Source of the DNA: an uncultured Spirochaetales bacterium
GTDB taxonomy: Bacteria > Spirochaetota > Spirochaetia > Sphaerochaetales > Sphaerochaetaceae
DNA length: 64,000 nucleotides
Assembly: GCA_949295125.1 (NCBI GenBank)
Contig: CASFJV010000046.1
Span: 1 to 64,000, forward strand
Direction of reading: 5' to 3'
The position numbers and the translations under genes were made by a program. Below are positions 1,534 to 10,642 of the stretch, one piece after another (the first letter of the stretch is position 1; every line of letters starts with the position of its first letter). Below the pieces are notes generated by a model. That model had not been told where the DNA came from. It ran no database searches and saw only the letters and a program-made list of their open reading frames with translations.

Positions 1534-2448
1534 ATGATCGAGTTCCTACATGATAACCTGTCATATTTCCTCTCTGGCATATCTGTCGGAGGACAGTACG
1601 CACTTATTGCAATAGGCTATACGATGGTTTATGGAATACTGAGGCTTATAAACTTTGCCCACGGTGATGTTTTCATGTGCGCAGGGCTTGCAATGGTATA
1701 TCTCTCGGCAAGCCTTCCATTCTACATCTCCATTCCTGTAACCATCATCCTTACAGTGCTTTTAGGATTTGTTATTGAGCGTGTGGCATACCGCCCATTG
1801 AGATCTGCTCCCCGCATGTCAGTCATGATAAGCGCTATAGGAGTCAGCTATCTGCTGCAGAACGCAGCGCTATATTTCACAGGTGGGCTTGCAAAGGTCT
1901 ATCCTGCAATCCCGCTTTTAAGCGATACGGTCACTATCTGGGATTCTCCAACGAGAGCGGTTACAATCATCACACCGTTTCTCACTGTATTCCTTGTAAT
2001 CGTACTTACACTTTTAATCAAGCATACAAAGATCGGCATGGCCATGAGGGCTGTTTCCAAGGATTTTGAGACAAGCCAGCTCATGGGCATCAAGATAAAC
2101 AATATAATCAGCGTGACTTTCATCATCGGCTCATTCCTGGCAGCTGTCGGATCAATACTGTATTTCTCAAATTATTCTTCAGTTGTTCCAACAAGCGGAA
2201 GCATGCCCGGCCTCAAAGCCTTTGTTGCTGCAGTCTTTGGCGGTATAGGATCCATTCCGGGTGCGGTTATCGGAGCCTTCATAATTGGAATCTGCGAGAA
2301 TATCATACGCGGAGGGGCAAGCATATTCGGCATTCCGGGAACAGGATGGACAACATTTTCAGATGCATTCACATTTGCACTGCTTATTGTGATCCTTGTT
2401 GTCAAGCCAACAGGACTCTTTGGTGAAAAGAGTGTTGATAAGGTCTAA
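1534..2448 (+). CDS. livH: Branched-chain amino-acid ABC transporter permease LivH
   Basis: Inner-membrane permease of the Liv importer; 304 residues, mostly hydrophobic, with about eight transmembrane segments. The family hallmark RLINFAHGDVFM lies at residues 37-48, and a cytoplasmic coupling-helix region follows around SKDFETSQLMGI. An AAAGGAG site lies 6-7 nt before the ATG. It follows livJ by 65 bp and precedes livM by 9 bp, so it is co-transcribed. It should pair with LivM as a heterodimer energised by LivG and LivF. Confidence 0.93.
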   Translation: MIEFLHDNLSYFLSGISVGGQYALIAIGYTMVYGILRLINFAHGDVFMCAGLAMVYLSASLPFYISIPVTIILTVLLGFVIERVAYRPLRSAPRMSVMISAIGVSYLLQNAALYFTGGLAKVYPAIPLLSDTVTIWDSPTRAVTIITPFLTVFLVIVLTLLIKHTKIGMAMRAVSKDFETSQLMGIKINNIISVTFIIGSFLAAVGSILYFSNYSSVVPTSGSMPGLKAFVAAVFGGIGSIPGAVIGAFIIGICENIIRGGASIFGIPGTGWTTFSDAFTFALLIVILVVKPTGLFGEKSVDKV

Positions 2449-2457
2449 GGGGGAATT

Positions 2458-3582
2458 ATGGATAGGGAAAAGAGAAAAGAGAAGATTGCTTTATTCATCT
2501 TCATCGCTGCCATTTACATATTCGTTTTCATTCTCGAGCTGACACTTAGGAAGACAAGCATTGTGTTCACCGTCCTTAGAAAAGGGGCAATCTATTCGCT
2601 CGTTGCAGTTTCAATGAACCTTCTCAACGGCTTTACTGGCCTATTCAGCCTCGGCCAGGCAGGGTTCATGCTTCTTGGTGCATACACATACGGAATCCTT
2701 ACGATGCCAACAAGTGTGAAGGAAGGAACAAGCGTTTACCGCTATTATGATGCCTTGATCAAATTCGATACCGGAGTGTTTACAGGCCTGATCGCAGCCG
2801 GTCTTGTAGCAGCACTCTTTGCTGCAGTAATCGGCCTTCCCGTTCTAAGGCTGAAAAGCGATTACCTTGCCATAGCAACCCTGGGATTTGCAGAGATCAT
2901 AAGGGCTGTGTTCCAGTGGGACGTACTTGGGCCGCTGACAAACGGAGCAAACCTCATAAGGAACTACAAGGACCTGACAAACATAACAATTCCATTCACT
3001 GACATCCAGTTCCCTCCCACCCTCTTCATCTTCATAGTGGTCGGAATCTGCATTGCAATAATAGTTATGCTCATTAACTCCTCATATGGAAGGGCATTCA
3101 AGGCAATAAGGGATGATGAAGTGGCAGCCGAGGCAATGGGAATCAACCTCTTCAGGCATAAGGAGCTGAGTTTTGTGATATCGTCATTCTTTGCCGGAAT
3201 TTCCGGAGCACTCCTTGCCATGTTCCAGTTCACGGTGCAGGCATCACAGTTCAGGACAAGCATGACATACGAACTCCTTCTTATTGTCGTGATCGGAGGA
3301 ATTGGGTCAATAAGCGGATCCTGCATAGCATCTTTCCTTTACATCGCACTCTCCGAGTGGTGGCTCCGCGGCCTTGACATGGGTACATTCCTTGGCATCC
3401 ATGCCCCCAACCTTTTCCGCTCTGGCTTCAGGAGGCTTGTCTTCTCCGTTGCCATAATGTGCATCGTCCTTTTCTTCAGCAAGGGAATCATGGGAGATAA
3501 GGAGCTTTCGCTGAAGAGAATGAAAGAAAGAATTGCTGCTGTTCCTTTATTCTTCAAGAGACTGAAAAAGAGGGAGGCCTGA
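2458..3582 (+). CDS. livM: Branched-chain amino-acid ABC transporter permease LivM
   Basis: Second membrane subunit of the Liv importer; 374 residues. It carries the LivM signature LNGFTGLFSLGQAGFMLLGAY at about residues 55-76 and the conserved cytoplasmic loop RAIRDDEVAAEAMGIN. The C-terminus is extended and basic (ending KRLKKREA). A GGGGGA ribosome-binding site lies directly upstream. Nine bp separate it from livH and 1 bp from livG, indicating a single operon with probable translational coupling. Confidence 0.93.
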   Translation: MDREKRKEKIALFIFIAAIYIFVFILELTLRKTSIVFTVLRKGAIYSLVAVSMNLLNGFTGLFSLGQAGFMLLGAYTYGILTMPTSVKEGTSVYRYYDALIKFDTGVFTGLIAAGLVAALFAAVIGLPVLRLKSDYLAIATLGFAEIIRAVFQWDVLGPLTNGANLIRNYKDLTNITIPFTDIQFPPTLFIFIVVGICIAIIVMLINSSYGRAFKAIRDDEVAAEAMGINLFRHKELSFVISSFFAGISGALLAMFQFTVQASQFRTSMTYELLLIVVIGGIGSISGSCIASFLYIALSEWWLRGLDMGTFLGIHAPNLFRSGFRRLVFSVAIMCIVLFFSKGIMGDKELSLKRMKERIAAVPLFFKRLKKREA

Positions 3583-3583
3583 T

Positions 3584-4429
3584 ATGGAGAGCATACTTAA
3601 GCTTGAGAACGTCACGATGCAGTTCGGCGGAGTTGTCGCTGTGAATAACCTGTCGCTGAATGTGAATAAGGGGGAAATCGTTGCCCTTATCGGTCCAAAT
3701 GGAGCTGGAAAGACCACTGCATTCAACTGCATCACAGGGGTATATGAGCCTACAAACGGAAAGATCAGCTTTGAAGGCAATGTTATAATATCAAATACGC
3801 CAAGCGGGAAGATGAAGAAGATCTACGCAGGAGAAAACAGGACGCTATATGAACAAGACAAGGTTCTCAGCCCTACCCCTGACAGGATAACGGAACTTGG
3901 AATTGCAAGGACATTCCAGAACATAAGGCTTTTCAAGAGCATGACTGTCTTTGACAATGTCCTTACTGCAATGCATTTAAGGGCAAGGCAGAATGTTTTT
4001 TCCGCAACATTCAGGATAAGCCATGCTGAAGAAAAGAGGATGAGGGAAGAAACCGAAGAGCTCTTAAGGGAGCAGGATCTTTATTCTCTCAAGGATGAGA
4101 TAGCAACCTCACTGCCGTACGGAAAACAGAGGCGTCTTGAAATAGCCAGGGCATTGGCTACGAAGCCAAAGCTGCTTCTTCTTGATGAGCCGGCTGCAGG
4201 AATGAATCCGCAGGAAACGCTTGAACTGGCTAATTTCATAAAAGAGATTAAAGACCGCTACAGCCTCTCAATATTCATGATTGAGCACCATATGGACCTT
4301 GTCATGAAGATCTCTGACCGGATTTATGTCCTTGATTTCGGTTCCCTGATTGCTGAAGGCAATCCTGAGGAAATACAGGGGAACCAGAGGGTAATTGATG
4401 CATATCTGGGGGTATCTGAAGATGTTTAG
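3584..4429 (+). CDS. livG: Branched-chain amino-acid ABC transporter ATP-binding protein LivG
   Basis: Cytoplasmic ATPase subunit; 281 residues, somewhat longer than the usual roughly 255. It shows Walker A GPNGAGKTT, the LivG-type ARTFQNIRLF segment, a signature region SLPYGKQRRLEIARAL (a non-canonical LSGGQ form usual for LivG), Walker B LLLLDEPAAGMN and the switch histidine in IEHHMD. The extra length lies between Walker A and the RTFQN motif (about residues 65-100) and resembles LivG proteins with an insertion there. Its last 8 bases overlap livF. Confidence 0.93.
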   Translation: MESILKLENVTMQFGGVVAVNNLSLNVNKGEIVALIGPNGAGKTTAFNCITGVYEPTNGKISFEGNVIISNTPSGKMKKIYAGENRTLYEQDKVLSPTPDRITELGIARTFQNIRLFKSMTVFDNVLTAMHLRARQNVFSATFRISHAEEKRMREETEELLREQDLYSLKDEIATSLPYGKQRRLEIARALATKPKLLLLDEPAAGMNPQETLELANFIKEIKDRYSLSIFMIEHHMDLVMKISDRIYVLDFGSLIAEGNPEEIQGNQRVIDAYLGVSEDV

Positions 4430-5120
4430 CATAAAGAATCTGAAAGTGAATTATGGCGGAATTGAAGCAGTAAGGGATATCTCCTTTGATGTTCCAGATG
4501 GTTCAATCGTATCGCTGATCGGCGCTAACGGCGCAGGCAAGAGCACTACGCTGAGAACCATAGCAGGGCTTGTAAAAGCCAGGAGCGGCAAAATAGAATT
4601 TAGCGGGGAAGATATCACGAACAGGGAGCCGGCCTACATCGTGCAGAAAGGAATAACGCTGGTGCCGGAAGGAAGGAAGATATTTGCCGATCTCACTGTC
4701 CTTGAGAACCTTAAAATCGGCGCTTACCTTAGAAGCGACAGCCTTGAGGAGGATCTTGAATGGGTTTACTCCCTTTTCCCGAGGCTCAAGGAGAGAAGCT
4801 GGCAGCTTGGAGGAACGCTCTCTGGAGGAGAGCAGCAGATGCTTGCTGTGGCAAGGGCACTGATGGCGAAACCGAAGATCATGATGATGGATGAGCCATC
4901 CCTTGGACTGGCTCCGCTTATCGTAAAGGATATTTTCTCCATCATAAAAGAGATAAACAGGCTTGGCGTTACAATACTGCTGATTGAACAGAATGCAAAT
5001 ATGGCACTCCAGGTTGCAGATATGGCATATGTAATGGAAACCGGACAGATAGCCCTTTCCGGAAAAGGTTCAGAACTGCTGAAGAATGAAGATGTGAAGA
5101 AAGCATATCTTGGTTCTTGA
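4422..5120 (+). CDS. livF: Branched-chain amino-acid ABC transporter ATP-binding protein LivF
   Basis: Second ATPase subunit; 232 residues, normal for LivF. Motifs in order: Walker A GANGAGKST, LVPEGRKIF, signature LSGGEQQ, Walker B IMMMDEPSLGL and the switch region LLIEQN. ATG 4422 is chosen because the protein then begins MFSIKNLKVNYGG, as in the family, with GGGGG about 9 nt upstream. An in-frame ATG at 4395 would add residues that belong to livG. The start overlaps the livG stop, implying coupled translation. It ends the operon and converges with the P-II gene. Confidence 0.93.
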   Translation: MFSIKNLKVNYGGIEAVRDISFDVPDGSIVSLIGANGAGKSTTLRTIAGLVKARSGKIEFSGEDITNREPAYIVQKGITLVPEGRKIFADLTVLENLKIGAYLRSDSLEEDLEWVYSLFPRLKERSWQLGGTLSGGEQQMLAVARALMAKPKIMMMDEPSLGLAPLIVKDIFSIIKEINRLGVTILLIEQNANMALQVADMAYVMETGQIALSGKGSELLKNEDVKKAYLGS

Positions 5121-5170: not shown

Positions 5171-5761
5171 CTAGCCAAGTGGCACAAAATTGTTTACAGG
5201 TATAGTAAAGAGGATTCCCATGCCTTTCTTCTTGAGGCATTCAAGGCCCTTTACAGCCTCAACCACCCTTTCTGAAACATCACTTTTTGCAACAATCAGG
5301 AGGATTTCCTTTTCTGGAACGATTGAGATGCCGAAGAATTTAGCATCCTCTTCACTTGCAGTTCCATGTGCATTTATTATTGTTCCGCCGCTTGCTCCCG
5401 CTTTCCTGGCAGTTGCCATGACATCTTCGCTATATCCTTTCTCAACGATAATTTCTATCATTTCCCATTCTCTGCTCATACTTCTGTCCTCACTGTTTGC
5501 ATCCATTATGAATGCAATGCCATTCTTGCTTTTCGCCCTCTTTGCTGCTAAGAGCACGCTATCAAGTATCTCATCGCTAAGAAGGCTCATTATAACCTCC
5601 TTGCGGCTGTCTCCAATGCCAAGCAGCGCAAGCACTGAAGATGATGCGCTTCCGCGTGCATAGCATATTGTTCCACCCGTTGCACCGGCATCCCTCATCG
5701 CCTTCATTACCCTTGAGCCATCGCCTTTCTGGACTACAGCAATTAAAAGATAATTTCTCAT
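5171..5761 (-). CDS. Tandem P-II-like signalling protein
   Basis: A 196-residue protein made of two P-II-like (GlnB-fold) halves, about residues 1-90 and 98-190. Each half carries the family's glycine motif (DAGATGGTICYARGSA and KAGASGGTIINAHGTA) and the EKE/RKE-V-I-hydrophobic strand. P-II proteins are usually about 112 residues and trimeric, so the duplication is notable. The uridylylated tyrosine T-loop of GlnB is not evident. It is the last gene of a minus-strand operon. Its start overlaps the end of the DUF1538 gene by 4 bp, suggesting it regulates that membrane protein or senses its substrate. Ligand unknown. Confidence 0.8.
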   Translation of the reverse strand: MRNYLLIAVVQKGDGSRVMKAMRDAGATGGTICYARGSASSSVLALLGIGDSRKEVIMSLLSDEILDSVLLAAKRAKSKNGIAFIMDANSEDRSMSREWEMIEIIVEKGYSEDVMATARKAGASGGTIINAHGTASEEDAKFFGISIVPEKEILLIVAKSDVSERVVEAVKGLECLKKKGMGILFTIPVNNFVPLG

Positions 5762-7212
5762 ACTCTACTCTCCATCTCTTTCTTCTTCAGAGCCCTGCTA
5801 TAGATTATACCAAGAATTTCAATGCACAGTATCGGAGTCATGGCAATAAGGCCAATCATGCCAAAACTTGCTGTTGCCATATTTCCTCCCATGCTTGCTG
5901 CTGCGCCAATGGCAAAAGGCAGGAGGAATGTTGAACTCATCGGACCTGTTGCAACACCGCCAGAATCAAATGCAATTCCAACAAACAGTGTTGGCGTTTT
6001 CAGCATGAGAAGAAGTATTATTGCATATCCGGGTAAAAGGAAAGTCCATATCGAAAGGGAGAAAATGATCCTGATCATTGCAAGAAGCACTGCGCATGCC
6101 ACTCCGATGCACATTGCACTCAGCATGACCTTCCTCTGGATATGTCCCTGTGTAACCTCTTCAACCTGACGTGTAAGAACCCATATTGCAGGTTCTGCAA
6201 GAACTACGGATGCTCCGAGGAAAAATCCCACCAGGCAAAGCAGTATCCTGCTTGCAGAAGCCAGGGAAGCACCGATACTTGAAGCAGTCGGCATGAAGAA
6301 TCCCTTTACGGCAAAGAGAAATACTATAAGTCCGATATAAGTATAGAAGAATCCTATGAACATCCTGGCTGTCTGCATCTTAGGCATCTTGAGAAGGACA
6401 AGCTGCATCAGGATGAATACCAGGACAAGGGGAAGGAGTGCTGATGTGACTTCCTTCAGCACATCTATAAACTGCTCAAGCATTCCAAGGCTTTCACTGG
6501 CACTTTCAATATCAGTATTCAGGTTTCCACTGAATATCAGGCCAAGGATAAGCACAAAGAGCACAGGTCCGATCGAAGCAATTCCAGTATAGCCGAAAGA
6601 TGAATCTTCCCCATCATTCTTGCTTTCGCTGATTCCAAGTCCAAGTGCCATGATGAAGGGAACAGCCATAGGCCCAGTAGTTGCACCTCCTGAGTCAAAG
6701 CCCACAGAGACAAAGAACTCATCCACAAAGAATGCAACAGCGAAAGTAACTGCCACACAGAGAGCAAGGGTGAGCTTCAATGACAGGTTCAGTATGCTCC
6801 TTAAGAAGGATATTGCTACAAAAATCCCTACTCCAAGGCTTATGGCAATTATCAGGACCATAGGGCTTATAAGTGGATTTATGGCTGTAACCTGGTCAGC
6901 AAGCACCCTGACATCCGGTTCTGCCACGGTAATGATTGTTCCCAGGAAAAATCCTACCAGAAGAAGCAGTCCGATATTCTTTTTCTGTGTGACCCTGGAT
7001 CCGATAAGGCTTCCAACTGGAGTTAGCCCTATATCCACGCCAACAAGGAATACAGTAAGCCCAATTATTACAAGGACTACAGAAAAAATGAACTCAACGA
7101 ATGAAATCTCACCCGTTGAGAATACTCCTAAAATTAGTCCTGCCACTGCAGCAATCACTGCAATAGGCAGAACGGATATAACAGTTTCTTTAAGTTGCTT
7201 TACAAATCCCAT
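5758..7212 (-). CDS. DUF1538 family tandem-repeat membrane protein (putative transporter)
   Basis: A 484-residue polytopic membrane protein with two homologous halves. VGFFLGTIITVAEPDVRVL (about residue 86) is mirrored by VGFFLGASVVLAEPAIWVL. VGFDSGGATTGPM (about residue 170) is mirrored by IAFDSGGVATGPM. The repeated AEP and FDSGG-x-TGPM motifs are characteristic of DUF1538. Two half-repeats with conserved acidic and glycine motifs are what a secondary transporter would show, but the substrate is unknown. It sits between a sodium-pump-like beta subunit with its small partner and a P-II-like protein, with 11 bp and -4 bp spacing, so all four are one transcript. Confidence 0.85.
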   Translation of the reverse strand: MGFVKQLKETVISVLPIAVIAAVAGLILGVFSTGEISFVEFIFSVVLVIIGLTVFLVGVDIGLTPVGSLIGSRVTQKKNIGLLLLVGFFLGTIITVAEPDVRVLADQVTAINPLISPMVLIIAISLGVGIFVAISFLRSILNLSLKLTLALCVAVTFAVAFFVDEFFVSVGFDSGGATTGPMAVPFIMALGLGISESKNDGEDSSFGYTGIASIGPVLFVLILGLIFSGNLNTDIESASESLGMLEQFIDVLKEVTSALLPLVLVFILMQLVLLKMPKMQTARMFIGFFYTYIGLIVFLFAVKGFFMPTASSIGASLASASRILLCLVGFFLGASVVLAEPAIWVLTRQVEEVTQGHIQRKVMLSAMCIGVACAVLLAMIRIIFSLSIWTFLLPGYAIILLLMLKTPTLFVGIAFDSGGVATGPMSSTFLLPFAIGAAASMGGNMATASFGMIGLIAMTPILCIEILGIIYSRALKKKEMESRV

Positions 7213-7223
7213 TAACTAGATTC

Positions 7224-7496
7224 TCACTCTTTATCCTTTTTCTTGCCTGTAAGTGCATTAAGAACAATAAGAACGAGAAACAGGATACCCATAGCTGCAG
7301 CCAGCAGACCCCAGCGGGAAAATGCAACAACTGTTACGTTTCCAGCATTGTAATTCTCCTCCATCATAGCGGAAACGATTTCTGAAGTTGAATTGCCGTT
7401 TTCCATCATAGCTGCAATCTCACTGATCTGATCTACAGTTAATTCTCCATTAGTCTGAGCAATAAGCTGATCGATTGTTGTATTATCCATGTCCAT
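7224..7496 (-). CDS. Small tail-anchored membrane protein next to OadB-like subunit
   Basis: A 90-residue protein with an acidic N-terminal half (residues 1-50, M-x-E/D-rich, probably helical), one transmembrane segment at about residues 60-82 and a basic KKKDKE tail. It occupies the place where an OadG gamma subunit might be expected, 5 bp after the beta-subunit gene. However, the topology is reversed relative to OadG, whose single membrane helix is N-terminal. No family was recognised. A structural partner of the beta-like subunit is inferred from position only. Confidence 0.65.
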   Translation of the reverse strand: MDMDNTTIDQLIAQTNGELTVDQISEIAAMMENGNSTSEIVSAMMEENYNAGNVTVVAFSRWGLLAAAMGILFLVLIVLNALTGKKKDKE

Positions 7497-7501
7497 CCTC
7501 C

Positions 7502-8629
7502 TTAGCTTAATGCTGAAATAACAGTTGTGACGTTATTCACATGCGGTAATAAGTAAGATAACAGCAGTCCGCCTGCAAGAACAGATCCAATCTGTCCTGA
7601 AACGTTTGCACCAAGTGCAAATGGAAGGAGGTGATTCTGCTTATCTGCCTCAATACCGACCTTCTGCACAACACGGCTTGACATCGGGAATGCAGAGATT
7701 CCAGCTCCTCCGATAAGCGGATTGATCTTCTTTCCCTTTGGAAGGAAGATATTTGCTATCTTGAGGAATACGACTCCACATGCTGTGTCAAATGCGAATG
7801 CAACAAGTCCGAATGCCATGATCATGATTGTCTCCGGCCTTAAAAGTGCAGGACCTGACATCATTGGAGAAATTGCAAGTCCGAGAAGGAGTGTGATAAG
7901 CGGGCTCAGCATGTTCTGTGCAGCAAGAGAGAGGCTGTCGAGAACTCCGCACTCCCTCAGGAGGTTTCCGAACATGAGCATACCAACGAGAGCTGCTGAA
8001 TCTGGTGCAAGCCAAGCACACACGATTGTTGTGAGGATTGGGAACAGGATCCTTGTTGTCCTGCTCACAGCCTTTGCGCTGTAGTGCATCCTGATCTGCC
8101 TTTCCTTCTTTGTTGTGCATGCCTTCAGGACTATAGGCTGGATCATAGGGACCAGAGCCATATAACAGTATGCAACAACAAGAATTGCAGCAACGTAGTT
8201 GGACTGCAGTCGCTGTGATACAAGGATTGCTGTAGGACCGTCGGCAGCACCGATGATACCAATTGAAGCAGCATCATTCAGTGGGAAGCCGAGAAGAGCT
8301 GCTACTATCATGGAAATGAAGATACCGCCCTGCCCTGCTGCTCCGATGAAGATGAGCCAAGGCTTCGAAATAAGTGGTCCGAAGTCAATCATTGCTCCTA
8401 TACCGATAAAGAGAAGAAGCGGGAATGCTTCTGCGCTTTCAATACCAACATTGAACAGCCACTGAAGGATTGCATTGTCCTGCAGCATGACAGAACCTGG
8501 AATGTTGACCAGAATAGCGCCAAAACCCATAGGAAGGAGTAAAGTCGGCTCCATCTCTTTCTTGATAGCAAGATAGATTAGGATGAGACCTACGCCTATC
8601 ATAATAATTTGACTGGTTAATTCGTTCAT
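7502..8629 (-). CDS. oadB: Na+-translocating decarboxylase beta subunit-like protein
   Basis: Membrane protein of the OadB/GcdB/MmdB family, the sodium-pumping subunit of biotin-dependent decarboxylases; 375 residues and about nine to eleven membrane segments. The conserved GAADGPTAILVSQRL motif carries the aspartate used in Na+ binding in the family. GANVSGQIGSVLAGG near the C-terminus is the second conserved half-site. Start ATG 8629 (MNELTSQ) has GGAG 4 nt upstream; the longer frame from 8659 lacks support. No carboxyltransferase (OadA) or biotin carrier gene lies near. The neighbours are a small membrane protein, a DUF1538 protein and a P-II-like protein. The gene symbol reflects family only. 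Confidence 0.85.
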   Translation of the reverse strand: MNELTSQIIMIGVGLILIYLAIKKEMEPTLLLPMGFGAILVNIPGSVMLQDNAILQWLFNVGIESAEAFPLLLFIGIGAMIDFGPLISKPWLIFIGAAGQGGIFISMIVAALLGFPLNDAASIGIIGAADGPTAILVSQRLQSNYVAAILVVAYCYMALVPMIQPIVLKACTTKKERQIRMHYSAKAVSRTTRILFPILTTIVCAWLAPDSAALVGMLMFGNLLRECGVLDSLSLAAQNMLSPLITLLLGLAISPMMSGPALLRPETIMIMAFGLVAFAFDTACGVVFLKIANIFLPKGKKINPLIGGAGISAFPMSSRVVQKVGIEADKQNHLLPFALGANVSGQIGSVLAGGLLLSYLLPHVNNVTTVISALS

Positions 8630-8636
8630 AAGCTCC

Positions 8637-8665
8637 AATATAAACGAAAAAAAAAACAATATAAA
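8637..8665 (-). promoter_or_regulatory. Candidate oadB operon promoter with T10 spacer
   Basis: Read on the minus strand, a TTTATA hexamer (8665-8660) is followed after 17 bp by TATATT (8642-8637), and the ATG is 7 nt further on. The spacer contains ten consecutive T (A10 at 8647-8656 on the plus strand). GGAG falls between the -10 box and the ATG, so the transcript would have an extremely short leader if this -10 is used. The alternative is an upstream TATATT with the T10 tract transcribed. Confidence 0.4.
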
Positions 8666-8777
8666 GCGGAAAAAGGCTTAGTTGTCTGTTTTGCTTCAAA
8701 AGTTAATGGATTTTTGTCTGTATTGCCCTTCATATCCTTATGTGATAATGTACCTCAGGATATGGAGGATGGGAAAA

Positions 8778-9713
8778 ATGGAAAAGAAAAATAACTTCAT
8801 CACTTCCCCGCTGGCAATATTCCTCTTAGCAGGAATAAGCTGTTTTCTCTGGGGAAGCGCTACGCCATCAATAAAAACAGGATATGCACTATTTGGCATT
8901 GAGTCATCTGCCACTCTTGATATAATCCTTTTTGCTGGAATCAGGTTCTTCCTGGCTGGAATACTTGTAATCCTGATACAGTCAGCAATTTCAGGGAAAT
9001 TCATAGTACCGGAAAAGGGATCATTGCCTTCAATAATAAAGCTTGCATTGGCACAGACAGTCATACAGTATTTCTGTTTCTATATTGGGCTTGCACATAC
9101 ATCCGGAGTTGCAGGAACAATAGTATCAGGGGCAAGCGGTTTTTTCTCAATCCTCATTGCCTCCCTGATCTTCAAATATGAAAAGCTGACTTCAGCAAAG
9201 ATTATAGGATGCGTCCTGGGCCTTGGCGGAATAATAATAATGAATGTTCATCCAGGAAGCGATACAGCAATCACTTTCTCATTCCTTGGAGAGGGGCTTG
9301 TGCTGCTTTCAACAATATCCCTTGCCGTGTCTGGAATACTATGCAAGAAATACGGCCAGCGTTTCAATGTCGTTATGCTTTCCGGCTACCAGTTCATATT
9401 CGGCGGACTTGTCATGATAATAGTATCCCTTATTCTCGGAGGAAGGATTGGAGCCCCATCAAGCGCTTCTGGATATATCCTGATGCTCTATATGGCTTTT
9501 ATTTCTGCTGTGGCATACTCACTCTGGGGAACGCTTCTTAAATACAATGATGTAAGCAAAGTGACTATCTACAGCTTTATGACACCACTTTTCGGTGTTC
9601 TTCTTTCAGCCATCTTCCTTGGAGAGACAGAAGAGGCACTGCAGCTGAACAAGCTTCTGGCCCTTATTCTGGTCTGTGGTGGCATATATATAGTGAACAG
9701 GAAGAACAAATAG
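8778..9713 (+). CDS. EamA/DMT-family metabolite transporter
   Basis: An integral membrane protein of 311 residues with ten predicted membrane segments in two EamA repeats (about residues 8-145 and 160-305). The first repeat starts ISCFLWGSATPSIKTGY and the second ends ALILVCGGIYIVNR, both typical of the drug/metabolite transporter superfamily. The start is ATG 8778, with GGAGG 9 nt upstream; the ATG at 8769 would overlap that ribosome-binding site. It is monocistronic: divergent from the oadB operon and followed by a strong terminator. Substrate unknown; exporters of amino acids or metabolites are common in this family. Confidence 0.82.
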   Translation: MEKKNNFITSPLAIFLLAGISCFLWGSATPSIKTGYALFGIESSATLDIILFAGIRFFLAGILVILIQSAISGKFIVPEKGSLPSIIKLALAQTVIQYFCFYIGLAHTSGVAGTIVSGASGFFSILIASLIFKYEKLTSAKIIGCVLGLGGIIIMNVHPGSDTAITFSFLGEGLVLLSTISLAVSGILCKKYGQRFNVVMLSGYQFIFGGLVMIIVSLILGGRIGAPSSASGYILMLYMAFISAVAYSLWGTLLKYNDVSKVTIYSFMTPLFGVLLSAIFLGETEEALQLNKLLALILVCGGIYIVNRKNK

Positions 9714-9794: not shown

Positions 9795-9804
9795 AATCGA
9801 GCTT

Positions 9805-9876
9805 GGGCGGTTAACTCAGCGGGAGAGTGCCACCTTGACGTGGTGGAAGTCACAGGTTCAAACCCTGTACCGCCCA
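9805..9876 (+). tRNA. tRNA-Val (anticodon GAC)
   Basis: A complete 72-nt cloverleaf. Acceptor GGGCGGT pairs with ACCGCCC, the D-stem is ACTC/GAGT, and the anticodon stem CCACC/GGTGG encloses loop TTGACGT with anticodon GAC. The T-stem ACAGG/CCTGT encloses TTCAAAC, and the discriminator is A. The 3' CCA is not encoded and must be added by CCA transferase. It is a single gene with its own promoter and terminator. GAC reads GTC and GTT valine codons. Confidence 0.96.
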
Positions 9877-9924
9877 AAGACCTATCTGGTTTCTATATGA
9901 AGGAATTGGATAGGTCTTTTTTTT
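9876..9924 (+). terminator. Rho-independent terminator of tRNA-Val
   Basis: AAAGACCTATC (9876-9886) is perfectly complementary to GATAGGTCTTT (9909-9919), with a 22-nt loop and a run of eight T ending at 9924. The stem begins at the tRNA discriminator base, so 3' processing must open this hairpin. Confidence 0.88.
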
Positions 9925-9979: not shown

Positions 9980-10354
9980 CTATCTCCTTTTTTTAAGTTC
10001 GCTATTGAGCTTCCTGTCAAAAGATATTACTTCTGCACCCTCTGACAGCGCATTTGCTATAATGAGGCAATCCACATAATCCAGCCTCGTCTCCCCGTAG
10101 ATTGCGAGCGCACTGCGGATTTCCTCCTCTCTTTCAACCGTAACATCGTCAAGCAGATCGATGAGAATTTTCGATGCCTCTCTTCTGGGAATATCATAGA
10201 GAACCTTGCTTGTAAGCACATACAGGGCTTCAGGAATCTCCTCTGGAAGGATTTCCACGCCTTCGCTGATGATGTCACGGGCTTTTTCTGCAAGCTCTCT
10301 GCTGTCGCAGACAAGATAACGTATGAGTATGTTCGTATCAGCTATCTTTCTCAT
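9980..10354 (-). CDS. vapC: PIN-domain toxin, VapC-like
   Basis: A 124-residue PIN-fold ribonuclease, the probable toxin of a type II toxin-antitoxin pair. Acidic active-site positions are visible: D in IADTNILIRY at the N-terminus, E in EEIPEALYVL, D in RLDYVDCLII and D in SFDRKLN at the C-terminus. Start ATG 10354 (MRKIADTN) is chosen because PIN domains begin there; the frame upstream belongs to the antitoxin. It overlaps the antitoxin by 17 bp, so translation is coupled. Target RNA unknown. It ends near the tRNA-Val locus, with no obvious minus-strand terminator. Confidence 0.85.
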   Translation of the reverse strand: MRKIADTNILIRYLVCDSRELAEKARDIISEGVEILPEEIPEALYVLTSKVLYDIPRREASKILIDLLDDVTVEREEEIRSALAIYGETRLDYVDCLIIANALSEGAEVISFDRKLNSELKKRR

Positions 10355-10607
10355 TCCAGCTCCTTTCTGCCACATCTGCCCATGCAAGGCTCATTTCCTC
10401 GTCGCTTATGAACCGCTTCGCATATTTTTTCAGAGCCCCATAAGCCTTCAGCTTCTTGGGACGTTTTTCACTTTTCTGGATCAGTATACCATTCTTTGTA
10501 GCCGTGACTGAAACCTCATCTCCAGCTGAGTATCCAGTCTCGCTTAGTATTTCGCTTGAAAGGCGTATGCCTTGGGAATTTCCCCATTTCGATATTTTCG
10601 TAACCAT
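10338..10607 (-). CDS. vapB: AbrB/MazE-type antitoxin, VapB-like
   Basis: An 89-residue swapped-hairpin AbrB-type DNA-binding protein. The N-terminus MVTKISKWGNSQGIRLSSEI is the classic SpoVT/AbrB antitoxin motif, followed by GDEVSVTATKNGILIQ. The C-terminal 40 residues are charged and likely wrap the toxin. ATG 10607 is chosen because it starts exactly at this motif and has an AGGAGG-like site (GAGGCTGC) upstream; the longer frame adds eight residues over the operator. It is the first gene of the pair and probably autoregulates through the paired GTATATAC sites just upstream. Confidence 0.87.
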   Translation of the reverse strand: MVTKISKWGNSQGIRLSSEILSETGYSAGDEVSVTATKNGILIQKSEKRPKKLKAYGALKKYAKRFISDEEMSLAWADVAERSWNEKDS

Positions 10608-10617
10608 TTGCAGCCTC

Positions 10618-10642
10618 CTATGTATATACATAGTATATACTA
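10618..10642. promoter_or_regulatory. Double palindromic operator of the toxin-antitoxin operon
   Basis: CTATGTATATACATAG (10618-10633) is a perfect 16-bp palindrome. TAGTATATACTA (10631-10642) is a perfect 12-bp palindrome sharing TAG with it. The two GTATATAC cores start 11 bp apart, one helical turn, so two antitoxin dimers could bind the same face of DNA. It begins 11 bp upstream of the antitoxin start. Autorepression is inferred from the family. Confidence 0.7.

Follow-up and report, generated by a model that had tools for sequence, protein, structure and literature searches.

Na+-translocating biotin decarboxylases, which comprise the oxaloacetate (OAD), glutaconyl-CoA (GCD), and methylmalonyl-CoA (MMD) systems, contain a small gamma or delta subunit in which a transmembrane helix is followed by an Ala/Pro linker and by a C-terminal OadA-binding segment that ties OadA to the beta subunit OadB (PMC7145394). 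Na+ is also transported by UmpAB of Halomonas zhaodongensis, a Na+(Li+,K+)/H+ antiporter encoded by two DUF1538 genes; the clone in which it was described ends with these two genes, and the terms P-II and nitrogen regulatory are absent from that report (PMC5484666). Finally, in systems such as GlnK-AmtB and SbtB-SbtA, a P-II-fold protein is encoded together with a membrane transporter. The locus described here holds relatives of several of these proteins. It lies in a stretch of 64,000 nucleotides, hereafter the window, from the genome of an uncultured Spirochaetales bacterium.

Organization of the locus

Four open reading frames occupy the minus strand of the window from position 8629 to 5171. 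They encode, in order, an OadB-type protein of 375 aa, here called OadB2 (7502–8629); a 90-aa peptide with one transmembrane helix, here called mini-gamma (7224–7496); a fused UmpA-UmpB-type DUF1538 membrane protein of 484 aa, a putative Na+(K+)/H+ antiporter (5758–7212); and a tandem P-II-like regulator of 196 aa (5171–5761). The first two gaps measure 5 and 11 bp, and the P-II start overlaps the DUF1538 stop by 4 bp; the open reading frames thus confirm the strand, order, and spacing given in the initial annotation. As the frames are kept in relatives (68–89% identity for OadB and, in the nearest genomes, 75–80% for P-II), the four-gene arrangement is not a chance observation. A single transcript for the four genes is plausible; scans of the locus for promoters and terminators gave approximately chance-level results and no usable signal. 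The ATG of oadB2 at 8629 has GGAG ahead of it, and an alternative TTG at 8659 is also open. For mini-gamma, an ATG at 7490, located 6 nt behind a GGAGG, is better spaced and would yield a product of 88 aa.

Several neighbors were read by eye. A Liv branched-chain amino-acid ABC transporter operon with permeases and two ATPases (1534–5120, plus strand) converges on the P-II gene, and an EamA/DMT-type permease gene (8682–9713, plus strand) is divergent from oadB2; this last family adjoins oadB2 in six genomes, all of which have the joined operon. Further along are a tRNA-Val (GAC) gene (9804–9877, plus strand) and, again judged by eye, a probable toxin-antitoxin pair, formed by a PIN-domain protein and an AbrB/MazE-like partner (9980–10631, minus strand).

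A separate clade of beta subunits

The window OadB2 scores well against the models of its family (PF03977, OAD_beta, E = 8.6e-138 in Pfam; TIGR01109, 390 bits versus a cut-off of 190.6 in NCBIfam). As first noted, its usual partners are missing locally, with neither a carboxyltransferase nor a biotin carrier encoded in the four-gene operon. The host genome holds two OAD_beta genes. The other OadB (395 aa) is located at C63, where the carboxyltransferase and biotin carrier of the host lie beside it in a complete operon with oadG (95 aa) and an oadA that has two biotin domains (720 aa). A normal Na+-decarboxylase is thus present in the host and comes with a dedicated beta subunit. A role for OadB2 as the beta subunit of this operon was rejected for that reason. 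The initial annotation had considered that a distant oadA/biotin-carrier operon might use the window protein; such an operon does exist, but it is served by an OadB of its own, and this objection to a dedicated system therefore holds only by half.

Nearly all of the 48 genomes of the genus have two OadBs, and the divergent type seen in the window is present in 47 of them. A single tree was built from loci of the genome collection, loci of relatives, and the paired canonical copies. In this tree, OadB2 forms a clade separate from the biotin-adjacent OadBs, with 100% SH-aLRT support and members in Spirochaetota, Clostridia, and Chloroflexota. Biotin-adjacent OadBs carry the motif AMGPNVxGVI, whereas OadB2 mostly has ANV(S/A)GQ, and a nearby biotin gene is absent from almost all of the OadB2 loci that were read. 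OadB2 is an old and widespread, apparently unstudied branch of the Na+-decarboxylase beta subunits; in the open literature, no paper on an orphan OadB and no OadB2 biochemistry was found. The idea that OadB2 is simply a relocated GcdB or MmdB was not adopted, since in this tree, which included no functionally characterized GcdB or MmdB, the Clostridia genomes concerned have their canonical, biotin-adjacent OadBs in the other clade.

The residues of OadB that act in Na+ binding and carboxybiotin decarboxylation are D203, Y229, N373, G377, S382, and R389, which correspond in an alignment with 6iva to D130, Y156, N303, G307, S312, and R319 of the window OadB2. All six are invariant in the 63 sequences compared (48/48 OadB2 and 15/15 canonical), and seven other positions are fixed differently in the two clades, several of them beside functional residues. 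Because OadB2 keeps the residues for Na+ and decarboxylation and DUF1538 is the family of the UmpAB antiporter, a Na+-coupled function of the locus is likely, in line with the initial proposal.

Two observations on OadB2 copies may be added. In two Clostridia clusters from rumen or colon (L183:1627-6552 and L172:3234-8648), OadB2-mini-gamma is immediately upstream of oadA-oadG-biotin-oadB, so that a single cluster holds both types of beta subunit. One copy with a single in-frame TGA (G012:C251:4717-5787) is either a pseudogene or an assembly error.

The mini-gamma peptide

The small protein matches no family above threshold in Pfam or NCBIfam, and its assignment to CcmH, L11, or NrfF was rejected because those matches were only sub-threshold. 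Its single helix resembles the membrane helix of OadG, and both the Ala/Pro linker and the C-terminal OadA-binding, or docking, segment of canonical gamma and delta subunits are absent. The window protein also has some 45 additional N-terminal residues, which recur patchily in relatives. In the congeners read, one of them through locus L138, mini-gamma directly follows OadB2 throughout the genus and measures about 37–98 aa, a few copies being cut or extended; the overall range is 37–122 aa. In 74 of the 80 collection loci, the OadB2 stop is followed within 120 bp by the start of a peptide that has a single, strongly hydrophobic helix, and a typical sequence from Clostridia (MNANVIKSLKLMGMGMAAIFLVIIVIY...) is like the OadG helix. 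OadB2 and mini-gamma are a strict unit, referred to below as module A. Judging from the resemblance to OadG and from the positive-inside rule, mini-gamma should be oriented N-out/C-in, and its earlier description as a tail-anchored protein is probably wrong.

DUF1538 and its P-II partner

PF07556 matches the third protein in two stretches (E = 3.6e-117). In NCBIfam, the first half resembles UmpA (NaLiK_antip_UmpA, 2.5e-37) and the second UmpB (6.7e-31), although neither score reaches its equivalog cut-off (128.5 versus 490 bits and 107.6 versus 500 bits, respectively). By this likeness, the protein is a putative Na+(Li+,K+)/H+ antiporter. A good model of it (pLDDT 84.8, pTM 0.85) had no confident PDB match by Foldseek or VIA-align, nor did the sequence; consequently, no structural class is claimed for DUF1538.

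The P-II-like protein also has two matching stretches (PF00543, E = 2.9e-14, 53.7 bits versus a cut-off of 25). Its AF2 model (pLDDT 83) shows two ferredoxin-like folds, with PII structures among the matches; when one half is modeled, its TMt to PII structures is 0.6–0.7. Neither half matches PS00496 or PS00638, the PROSITE signatures of GlnB. A GlnK-like P-II with canonical motifs is encoded elsewhere in the host genome.

DUF1538 loci were read in the genus, in other families of the class, in further loci of the phylum, and in plasmid copies of Clostridia and Alphaproteobacteria. In almost all of these loci, which come from three phyla, the gene next after DUF1538 encodes a P-II protein; among the further loci of the phylum, this holds for 15 of 17 (phmmer). 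Domain numbers also agree, as split DUF1538 genes pair with a one-domain P-II and fused ones with a tandem P-II of about 190–280 aa. Plasmids of Chelativorans and Methylocystis (L324 and L325) carry DUF1538-DUF1538-P-II triplets with single-domain P-II proteins of 112–122 aa. DUF1538 and P-II are therefore a strict unit as well (module B); a search of the open literature found no paper linking the two. The initial annotation was right in placing P-II next to a transporter, given that it is a true neighbor of the putative cation transporter DUF1538. Its family assignments were also right, but it overlooked that DUF1538 has a known function, that OadB belongs to a distinct clade, and that the small protein is like OadG.

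Linkage of the two modules

The four genes are two conserved modules and not one dedicated system. The full set is present in 9 of 46 congeners and in one locus outside the genus (L155), which speaks against the dedicated four-gene system that had been proposed. Regarding the expected co-occurrence of the four families, the pairs of OadB2 with its peptide and of DUF1538 with P-II are conserved, but the full set occurs in few genomes. Genomes with the joined operon are dispersed over the OadB2 tree, along which the linkage state changes at least six times, and one of them (G007) has the operon in reversed order. An ancestral operon with repeated loss and repeated gain both fit this distribution. 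Outside the genus, the OadB2 pair lies apart from DUF1538 in most loci. In three congeners (G002, G023, and G034), DUF1538 was not found and a divergent tandem P-II directly follows OadB2-mini-gamma; thus, P-II is tied to OadB2 independently of DUF1538.

A possible Na+ circuit

Among 393 spirochaete genomes, the OadA domain (PF02436, PYC_OADA) is encoded in all 69 that have an OadB2, called at >400 bits, and in 166 of the 324 others. Where a canonical OadB is missing, OadA is found in 5/5 genomes with OadB2 only and in 23/177 with no OadB of any kind (Fisher p = 6e-5), these co-occurrence counts being tallied by hand and uncorrected for relatedness. The five genomes span four families and include a fragmented one (G410); without it, the test gives 4/4 and p = 4e-4, and with three families only, p = 0.003. 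G369 was rejected as an OadB2-only genome, as its oadA is at a contig end. In three genomes (G088, G099, and G402; loci L297, L298, and L305), the OadA-biotin gene stands alone and OadB2 is the only beta subunit, and in another (G439, L299), the single OadB is an OadB2 and is encoded away from the biotin and carboxyltransferase genes. Since OadB2 never occurs without OadA in this sample, and since it precedes a full OAD operon in the two Clostridia clusters mentioned above, the evidence favors decarboxylation-coupled Na+ export in which OadB2 would use OadA and its carboxybiotin in trans. Nevertheless, the missing docking segment argues for either a loose contact with OadA or a changed function.

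The most probable reading, although a tentative one, is that the locus combines two modules, each conserved on its own, in a Na+ circuit. Module A would supply an additional membrane half for a biotin-dependent Na+-translocating decarboxylase, without linkage to the genes of the enzyme. OadB2-mini-gamma would decarboxylate carboxybiotin brought by an OadA-biotin protein encoded elsewhere, and Na+ would be exported; contact with OadA would have to be transient because mini-gamma has no docking segment. Module B would be a Na+(Li+,K+)/H+ antiporter of the UmpAB type in fused form, its activity set by the cognate tandem P-II-like protein in response to a ligand. Where the modules are joined, this protein would probably act as sensor of the entire operon as well and may thereby control the Na+/H+ circuit. 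Some observations do not sit easily with this reading. Mini-gamma lacks the very part of gamma that holds OadA and OadB together (PMC7145394), and the host already owns a dedicated OadB. On its own, OadA can belong to a pyruvate carboxylase and could instead serve pyruvate carboxylation, while its co-occurrence with OadB2 partly reflects shared ancestry. In addition, the modules are kept apart in most congeners, and the proteins for which UmpAB activity was measured are distant ones that are encoded by two genes and have no P-II.

The loss of the docking segment would also suit an uncoupled Na+ carrier. OadB2-mini-gamma might be a Na+/H+ exchanger or a Na+ leak valve that makes no use of carboxybiotin and that, together with the UmpAB-type antiporter and P-II, would form a regulated set for Na+/pH homeostasis. 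Almost all of the loci read lack a nearby carboxyltransferase or biotin carrier, several of the seven positions fixed unlike those of canonical OadB are beside functional residues, and the operon is shared with an antiporter family and P-II. This alternative is somewhat less likely, however, as all six functional residues are kept and no OadB2 is found without OadA in the spirochaete sample. Less likely still is that OadB2-mini-gamma is a decarboxylation-independent Na+ transporter derived from a biotin decarboxylase, which spread over several phyla and is gated by P-II along with the DUF1538 antiporter in this lineage; if true, this would represent a novel type of Na+ circuit under P-II control.

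It is similarly improbable that the modules are functionally unrelated and that their shared operon is a lineage-specific inherited neighborhood that was repeatedly broken up. Linkage in only 9 of the 46 congeners, and the separation from DUF1538 of most OadB2 pairs outside the genus, would be expected in this case, but not so the joining of the modules in two orders and in another genus, the tight spacing of their genes, or the linkage of P-II to OadB2 in genomes without DUF1538. Finally, the Na+-coupled carboxylate or bicarbonate transport under P-II, like that of SbtA-SbtB, that had been suggested for the locus is very improbable, for although P-II adjoins transporter genes, the relatives of DUF1538 are cation/proton antiporters, there is no SbtA-like gene among the four, the chemistry of OadB is decarboxylation and not uptake, and nothing points specifically to such substrates.

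Family models used in annotation score OadB2 as an ordinary subunit of a decarboxylase pump. The enzyme-free, multi-phylum OadB2 clade and its one-helix gamma make it testable whether the Na+-pumping half works apart from a stable decarboxylase complex. Moreover, DUF1538 and P-II are paired so regularly that the whole antiporter family would have a regulator that has been overlooked.

Comparison with known systems

Like the transporter-associated PII-NG/PG0541 proteins, the window protein is a divergent P-II beside a transporter, although its match to that family is weak (E = 0.0017, 18 bits versus a cut-off of 45). By analogy with GlnK-AmtB and SbtB-SbtA, it may act as a gate; in contrast to these, it is a tandem protein devoid of GlnB signatures, and its neighbors are DUF1538 and OadB2, with no SbtA. 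The DUF1538 protein shares with UmpAB its two units and their order, UmpA and then UmpB, but the units are fused, they score far below the equivalog cut-offs, and the stop codon is overlapped by a P-II gene. With respect to the OAD, GCD, and MMD decarboxylases (6iva/6iww), the homology of OadB2 to the beta subunit extends along the entire protein and includes the six functional residues, and mini-gamma resembles the membrane helix of gamma and delta. In contrast to those complexes, OadB2 belongs to a separate clade and to an operon with no alpha or biotin subunit, its gamma is cut to one helix without the Ala/Pro linker and docking segment, and a canonical complex coexists with it in the same genome.
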